Source: Deltaproteobacteria bacterium RBG_13_61_14
GTDB lineage: Bacteria > RBG-13-61-14
DNA length: 7,044 nucleotides
Assembly (NCBI GenBank): GCA_001797815.1
Contig: MGQK01000112.1
Location: forward strand, 1,064 to 8,107
Reading direction: 5' to 3'
Both the position numbers and the translations under genes were made by a program. Shown here one piece after another: positions 237 through 1,813 of this stretch. Positions within the stretch are counted from its first letter, which is position 1, and every line of letters begins with the position of its first letter. The notes beneath the pieces were generated by a model. The model searched no databases. It saw nothing but the letters and a program-made list of their open reading frames with translations, and was not told the DNA's origin.

Positions 237-292
237 GTAGGGGCGTGATTGATCACGCCCAAGTCAGAGGGCGCAATCAATTGCGCCCCTAC
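237..292. repeat. BIME-like double hairpin (paired REP-like palindromes) between nrnA and truB
   Basis: Two 20-bp near-perfect palindromes lie 8 bp apart. The first has arms gggcgtgat (241-249) and atcacgccc (252-260) with a 2-nt centre. The second has arms gggcgcaat (269-277) and attgcgccc (280-288), again with a 2-nt centre. An outer inverted repeat, gtaggggcg (237-245) and cgcccctac (284-292), encloses both. This head-to-head layout is that of REP/BIME elements, which are often mobilised by RAYT (TnpA-REP) transposases; that kinship is inferred. No T-tract follows on the minus strand, so it is not an obvious intrinsic terminator. It is transcribed with the operon and ends 3 bp before the truB Shine-Dalgarno. 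Confidence 0.75.
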
Positions 293-324: not shown

Positions 325-1377
325 TTACTCGGAGGCTAAGAGGGCTGCGGCCAATTTTTCCTGGACCTGAAGCCGCACGCGCTCCAGGGAGCCGAGGAGC
401 GTGGTCCCGGCCGCCAGGCGGTGCCCGCCGCCGCCCAACTCCTCCGCGATCCTGGCCACGTTAATGCCGGGCGAGCCGTCGCCCTGCACCCGGCCGCGAA
501 AACTCACCTTCCATTTGTCTGGTCCCTGCTCGCGGAAGAGCACGGCCACTTTGACGCCTTCCACCGAGGCGGTGTGGTTGATAAAGCCCTCGGCATCCTC
601 CGCGCTGGTGCCGGTCTCCGCGAACATGGCCTGGGTCAGGACCATTTCCGCCACCCGGCCGGGGGCATCGAATTCCAGGGTGGAGAGCACCCGAGCAAGG
701 AGCTTGAGCTTGCCCTGGGGCTGGGTGTCGAAGACCTCGCGGGCCACGCGGGCCGGGTCCGCGCCGGCGCGGACCAGTTCGGAGGCGATGCGGAGCGCGT
801 TGGGCGTGGTGTTGGGGAAGCGGAAGGAGCCGGTGTCCATGAGGATGCCGGTGTAGAGATTGGTGGCAATATCCGTGGACAGTGGACGGTGCCCAGTGCT
901 CAGTGAAGAACCGGAGAGCAGAGGATTCTGTGCACTGTGCACTGTGCACTGTGCACTTACAATCAACTCATACACGATCTCACAGGTGCTGCTCGCATCC
1001 GGCCGGACCAGGTTGAGAGCGCCGAAGTTATCGTTGGTGTCGTGATGGTCAAGGTTGATGATCTCGCGGCCCTGGGCGAATTGGGCAAAGGCCGGGCCGG
1101 TGCGCTGGAGGTCGCCGCAGTCCACCACCACAATCAGCGCGGGCTCGCCTAAATCTTCGACCCGGCGGGTCATGGTGTCGGCGCCGGGGAGGAATCGGAG
1201 GAAGCTCGGCACCGGGTCCAGATTATAGGCCCGGGCGTCCTTGCCGGCGCTCTGGAGCCAGAGCGCGAGTGCCAGGGTGGAGCCCAGCGCGTCGCCTTCG
1301 GGGTTCTGGTGTGCGGCGACGGCCAACTGCGCGGCGGGCCGGAGGCGGTCAAGAATCTTCCGGATCATCGGATTCAT
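325..1377 (-). CDS. nrnA: DHH/DHHA1-family phosphoesterase (NrnA-type oligoribonuclease / pAp phosphatase) with an in-frame repeat insertion
   Basis: Members of this family are Mn-dependent bifunctional enzymes that degrade 2-5 nt RNA oligonucleotides and dephosphorylate 3'-phosphoadenosine 5'-phosphate. The protein is 350 aa. Visible DHH motifs are NPEGDALGS (25-33, with Glu27 where Asp is more usual), VVDCGD (84-89), the signature LDHHDTNDNFG (109-119) and GILMDTGSF (177-185). The C-terminal DHHA1 domain ends in the substrate-binding GGGGHRLAAG (315-324). All metal-site positions are therefore occupied. Residues 141-168 (SAQCTVHSAQ through RPLST) are not family sequence: they are encoded by an inverted array of 7-bp repeats at 874-957. 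They sit between the helix after DHH (EIVYELI) and IATNLYTGILMDTGSF. The ATG at 1375-1377 overlaps the end of rbfA by 29 bp; a second ATG (1366-1368) is equally possible, and neither has a strong Shine-Dalgarno, suggesting translational coupling to rbfA. Family assignment is firm; the exact substrate is inferred. Confidence 0.93.
   Translation of the reverse strand: MNPMIRKILDRLRPAAQLAVAAHQNPEGDALGSTLALALWLQSAGKDARAYNLDPVPSFLRFLPGADTMTRRVEDLGEPALIVVVDCGDLQRTGPAFAQFAQGREIINLDHHDTNDNFGALNLVRPDASSTCEIVYELIVSAQCTVHSAQNPLLSGSSLSTGHRPLSTDIATNLYTGILMDTGSFRFPNTTPNALRIASELVRAGADPARVAREVFDTQPQGKLKLLARVLSTLEFDAPGRVAEMVLTQAMFAETGTSAEDAEGFINHTASVEGVKVAVLFREQGPDKWKVSFRGRVQGDGSPGINVARIAEELGGGGHRLAAGTTLLGSLERVRLQVQEKLAAALLASE
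874..957. repeat. Inverted array of 7-bp tandem repeats inside nrnA
   Basis: The right arm (928-957) holds four consecutive copies of the heptamer read as AGTGCAC on the minus strand. The left arm (874-905) is a degenerate series of the same unit in opposite orientation: cgtggac, agtggac, ggtgccc, agtgctc, agtg. The arms align with about six mismatches over 30 bp around a 22-bp spacer, so the transcript can fold into a long imperfect hairpin. The whole element is 84 bp, exactly 28 codons, and has no stop in the nrnA frame. Because three heptamers make 21 nt, the right arm encodes a seven-residue peptide period (SAQCTVH-SAQ). Its architecture resembles the 8-bp array at 1736-1813. It is reminiscent of the heptameric STRR sequences of cyanobacteria, but no homology is claimed. 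Confidence 0.85.
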
Positions 1378-1735: not shown

Positions 1736-1813
1736 GGTGCCAGAGTGTCAGGGTGCCAAGGTGTCAGGGCCGCTTCTCACCTTGACACCTTGCCACCTTG
1801 CCACCTTGACACC
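1736..1813. repeat. Inverted array of 8-bp tandem repeats between ylxP and rbfA
   Basis: Left arm (1736-1767) units are ggtgccag, agtgtcag, ggtgccaa, ggtgtcag. The right arm (1779-1813), read on the other strand, gives ggtgtcaa, ggtggcaa, ggtggcaa, ggtgtcaa. Each unit is a variant of GGTGNCAR with period 8, and the fifth position varies most. The arms align with about eight mismatches over 35 bp around a spacer of about 11 bp, giving a long imperfect hairpin in the operon mRNA. It fills nearly the whole ylxP-rbfA gap, stopping 1 bp short of the ylxP stop codon (1815-1817). No U-tract follows, so it is not a classical terminator. Confidence 0.85.

Follow-up and report, generated by a model that had tools for sequence, protein, structure and literature searches.

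How an array of heptamer repeats with a non-coding style of sequence came to lie within the reading frame of an enzyme gene is the question raised by this locus. The array is located inside an nrnA-like gene of the window (i.e., the whole 7,044-nt stretch of DNA that was analyzed), and the gene order around nrnA is the common truB-nrnA-rbfA-infB-nusA-rimP (names assigned from translations). The features concerned are as follows:

325..1377, minus strand: nrnA-like gene encoding a DHH + DHHA1 phosphoesterase of 350 aa (ORF, Pfam, and Foldseek)
874..957, minus strand: in-frame insert, an inverted heptamer-array pair, codons 141-168 (SAQCTVHSAQNPLLSGSSLSTGHRPLST; sequence, ORF frame, codon score, and pLDDT)
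874..908, plus strand: left arm of five degenerate units, CGTGGAC AGTGGAC GGTGCCC AGTGCTC AGTGAAG
909..929, no strand: spacer between the arms, 21 bp (sequence)
930..957, minus strand: right arm of four perfect AGTGCAC units (TRF and sequence)

The host protein has DHH (2.2e-19) and DHHA1 (5.8e-11) domains in Pfam, and a Foldseek search with its modelled structure matched the T. maritima PDE TM1595 and Rv2837c. Because its score against the NCBIfam NrnA equivalog is below the cut-off (88.6 of 350 bits), "NrnA-like" is the safe name for this gene. The DHH, DTG, and GGGH motifs were all found, consistent with the preliminary description that the family motifs flanking the repeat are intact.

An inverted heptamer repeat had been described at 874-957, and both arms were confirmed there by the sequence, by TRF (928-957, period 7, 4.3 copies, 100%), and by a pattern search. 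In that search, a three-unit pattern with up to one mismatch has four matches in the window, all within the insert, and none in 200 shuffles. Among the arrays fetched from the genome, the right arm has the most identical units in a row. The left arm closes with AGTGAAG, which corresponds to the typical end unit AGTGA(A/T)N of the AGTGNNC family. Since this arm is a five-unit member of that family, a strict count leaves 21 bp for the spacer, instead of the 22 bp first described. The 84 bp correspond exactly to codons 141-168 of the nrnA ORF without a stop, and the ORF translation thus agrees with the earlier claim of 28 stop-free codons. For the insert as RNA, folding was not clearly above shuffles in stability (z -1.23), and as DNA the hairpin was moderately better than shuffles (z -2.49), such that a role as an mRNA hairpin is unsupported.

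Three lines of evidence, namely homologue alignment, codon usage, and an AlphaFold2 model, identify 874-957 as an insert in nrnA. For the alignment, we compared the stretch between I139 and D169 among 36 proteins (35 homologues and the window protein). This stretch has nine residues in 29 homologues and 10 or 11 in four (i.e., 9-11 in 33 of the 35), versus 29 in the window protein. The other two homologues (L036 and L054) have 34 and 61 residues at the same loop, with sequences unrelated to the insert. In the same-order relative G001, which lacks the insert, the site has nine residues (SDSGKKIGK) and the two match segments abut there. The gain of about 28 residues proposed in the preliminary description should be corrected to a net gain of about 20 (29 versus 9 residues). 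Given that the insert itself encodes 28 residues, about 8-9 native loop codons may have been replaced or lost.

The mean codon score of the insert is -0.265, compared to 0.363 and 0.368 on the two flanks. It is the lowest-scoring 28-codon window of nrnA and falls within the lowest 0.4% of the 2498 windows from the long genes of this genome. The AlphaFold2 model, which was built on a seven-row alignment, has a confident core (mean pLDDT 88.9, core mostly >90), and pLDDT is <50 only at 147-162, between helices 131-146 and 168-181. The insert is predicted to form a disordered loop between two confident helices, with the DHH/DHHA1 fold intact. The preliminary description had called for both homologue alignment and structure modelling as checks of a non-coding-style insert in a normally short loop. 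Both agreed with it: the gap at 141-168 is present, no conserved segment of the same length was found in relatives, and the codon scores and the model point the same way.

A genome-wide search for similar arrays had also been proposed, and many were found. The RGTRNNCRGTRNNCRGTR pattern has 172 matches in the 4.74-Mb genome (G000), with none for the reversed control. This census combines genome-wide pattern searches, with the first 100 of the 172 places listed, and 79 fetched array-bearing stretches. Among the 91 array clusters in these stretches, the one in nrnA is the sole internal copy whose frame stays open and coding-like through both flanks. Approximately 78% of the sequence in these loci was called coding, yet the arrays are rarely inside genes. 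In its modal form, an array comprises five units, AGTG(G/C)AC AGTGCAC (A/G)GTGCAC AGTG(G/C)AC AGTGA(A/T)N, and the unit type depends on the position in the array (chi-square P about 7e-13). This position-specific order argues for copying of a ~35-nt module over separate slippage at each site. Elsewhere in the genome, the arrays vary in unit number and are located outside genes. The inverted-pair design is also found at C33 (L079) and C63 (L093), both outside genes. L079 was considered as an intragenic copy and was dropped, as its frame contains stops and its location is between genes. The pair at L093:2901-3030 is flanked by two parS-like palindromes (TTTCACGTGAAA). Separately, a large BadF/DUF2229 protein has a C-terminal tail (HSAQWTVH...) that is encoded in part by a heptamer array at L075:2928-2985.

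For the distribution across genomes, AGTGNACAGTGNAC has no match in two genomes of the same order and at least one match in 27 of the 290 genomes searched. Several matches were found in the unrelated genomes G095, G107, G152, G185, G233, and G243, and in five of these the arrays that were read comprise 2-6 units each. On this patchy pattern, amplification of the AGTGNNC family took place in this lineage, and similar arrays arose or arrived elsewhere. In another unrelated genome (G065, 2.9 Mb), the reversed control CANGTGACANGTGA has 117 matches, which represent another heptamer family.

Outside nrnA, many arrays start at, or a few bases from, an upstream stop codon. When genes were called by a simple codon score, the start of 27 arrays lay no more than 12 bases from the stop codon of a same-strand gene, compared to three at the mirror position on the opposite strand; a few calls are possibly false (e.g., L089, with its neighbour on the other strand), but the bias is still large. 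At seven arrays (L097, L112, L113, L116, L123, L127, and L131), the upstream gene terminates in a TAG codon whose AG is the beginning of the array, with the T immediately before it. One tentative and rather doubtful extension of this pattern is that AGTGNNC arrays are tiny mobile modules that cross phyla and land preferentially at sense-strand stop codons, with the nrnA copy being a miss-hit turned protein.

We consider it likely that a chance copy of this lineage-amplified, normally intergenic repeat entered the nrnA loop and was kept as an in-frame, stop-free, disordered passenger. A heptamer module of about five AGTGNNC units (~35 nt), spread by copying via some enzyme or recombination, would have inserted as two inverted copies where a short loop links two helices of the DHH domain, and the native loop codons would have been lost at insertion or afterward. 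The insert would then be translated as a passenger loop of ~20 extra residues, disordered and with little or no function, in an NrnA-like protein that presumably still works. It may have survived because it is frame-neutral overall, stop-free in that frame, and located in a length-tolerant loop; the long inserts of L036 and L054 at this loop were counted in favor of such a landing place. By inspection of the unit, pure AGTGCAC runs are free of stops in all six frames, and among the arrays of this genome 60% of sense and 86% of antisense frames lack a stop, such that read-through of an in-frame landing is reasonably probable.

The mobility raised in the preliminary description is plausible. The position-specific units argue for module copying, but neither an empty site nor a target duplication was found. 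Searching the joined flanks of 96 arrays against the fetched loci returned only their own filled sites and one other filled site, and a target-site duplication, which along with terminal inverted repeats and empty sites characterizes MITEs, was not seen by eye at nrnA. As the fetched loci yielded only filled sites and the nearest relatives compared were two genomes of the same order, the insertion event is inferred. The unusual homogeneity of the right arm could mean local expansion after insertion. As to a possible mobilizer, the genome has 19 matches to Y1_Tnp (IS200/REP-type) transposases. None of the eight fetched Y1 loci has an adjoining heptamer array, and these transposases are thus at most a candidate mobilizer.

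Slippage is the usual origin of perfect tandem runs, and the run in the right arm could reflect local expansion within nrnA, not the insertion of a dispersed module. However, the left arm has the family unit order and the end unit AGTGAAG, and the inverted-pair design recurs at C33 and C63 outside genes, which make a purely local origin quite unlikely. The preliminary description also suggested that copy-number changes could switch nrnA on and off; the same four perfect units, the longest identical run found, speak for this, as the gain or loss of a single 7-bp unit shifts the frame. This phase variation is unsupported here and very improbable, given that the perfect repeat extends over only 28-30 bp and that the other arrays varying in unit number sit outside genes. 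Moreover, the homologue search found this gene as the sole NrnA-type match in the genome, such that off cells would have no nrnA paralogue as far as the search found.

The preliminary description further considered that the insert may be domesticated, and the loop could in principle act as a new binding surface or regulator of the enzyme. The insert is in frame in the assembled genome, and the encoded peptide GHRPLSTDIA is akin to the G-x-P-(I/L)-x-x-D-I-A that homologues usually have ahead of the next helix. Nevertheless, domestication appears unlikely and is unsupported, as the insert is predicted to be disordered, its codons are not gene-like, and it is found in no relative. An assembly or binning artifact could be suspected in a fragmented assembly of 132 contigs, where the contig of the window is 8.1 kb, but is scarcely credible when a single gene continues across both flanks with order and frame preserved, within a common gene order, and 84 bp fits into a read length.

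The passenger copy in nrnA can be compared with known repeat systems. Rickettsia palindromic elements (RPEs; Ogata et al., 2000, 2002) are known as in-frame palindromic repeats in housekeeping genes, with a length of about 150 bp and nearly half in ORFs (summarized in PMC10969869). Similar to RPEs, the nrnA insert is a multicopy palindromic repeat that sits in frame within a housekeeping gene and adds a translated segment to its product. Unlike RPEs, it consists of 7-bp-unit arrays, has only one of 91 clusters inside a gene instead of a large share of copies in ORFs, and has no conserved peptide beyond the heptamer. TAACTGA heptamer direct repeats are found in Beggiatoaceae, Cyanobacteria, and Bacteroidetes, where they overlap upstream stop codons and a minority is inside ORFs (MacGregor, 2015, PMC4679880). 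Both systems have tandem 7-bp units in few copies at many intergenic sites and overlap upstream stops. However, the AGTGNNC unit differs from TAACTGA, its middle bases vary, the order of its variants depends on position, and its arrays are tied to the upstream stop whereas TAACTGA is tied chiefly to the downstream start (PMC4679880). A literature search for a named AGTGNNC array family found none. In-frame palindromes of the RPE type and intergenic heptamer arrays are known; the insert in nrnA combines the two, with a different unit. This locus is a clear, individual example of protein sequence derived from intergenic repeat DNA within a housekeeping-type enzyme, from a repeat family other than those of Rickettsia, and the host enzyme is assayable with and without the loop. 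Furthermore, the placement at stop codons and the sporadic presence in unrelated genomes make the spread of heptamer arrays a testable question.

The arrays also resemble REP/REPIN elements (associated with Y1 = RAYT/TnpA-REP) in being short, dispersed, extragenic, and present as inverted pairs, in a genome that has Y1_Tnp genes (PMC3116915, PMC8266576, PMC3733652), but they lack the GTAG-tagged hairpin, which belongs to a separate repeat here. That repeat is located in the truB-nrnA gap (window 237-292) and contains two inverted hairpins, each strand starting with GTAGGGGCG, as a REPIN-like pair; its half-site pattern has 207 genome matches versus three for the reversed control. Another inverted array, with 8-bp units (GGTGTCAA / TTGACACC), is located between rbfA and a DUF503-like gene (window 1736-1813), and its strict unit pattern has 17 matches in the genome and none for the control.
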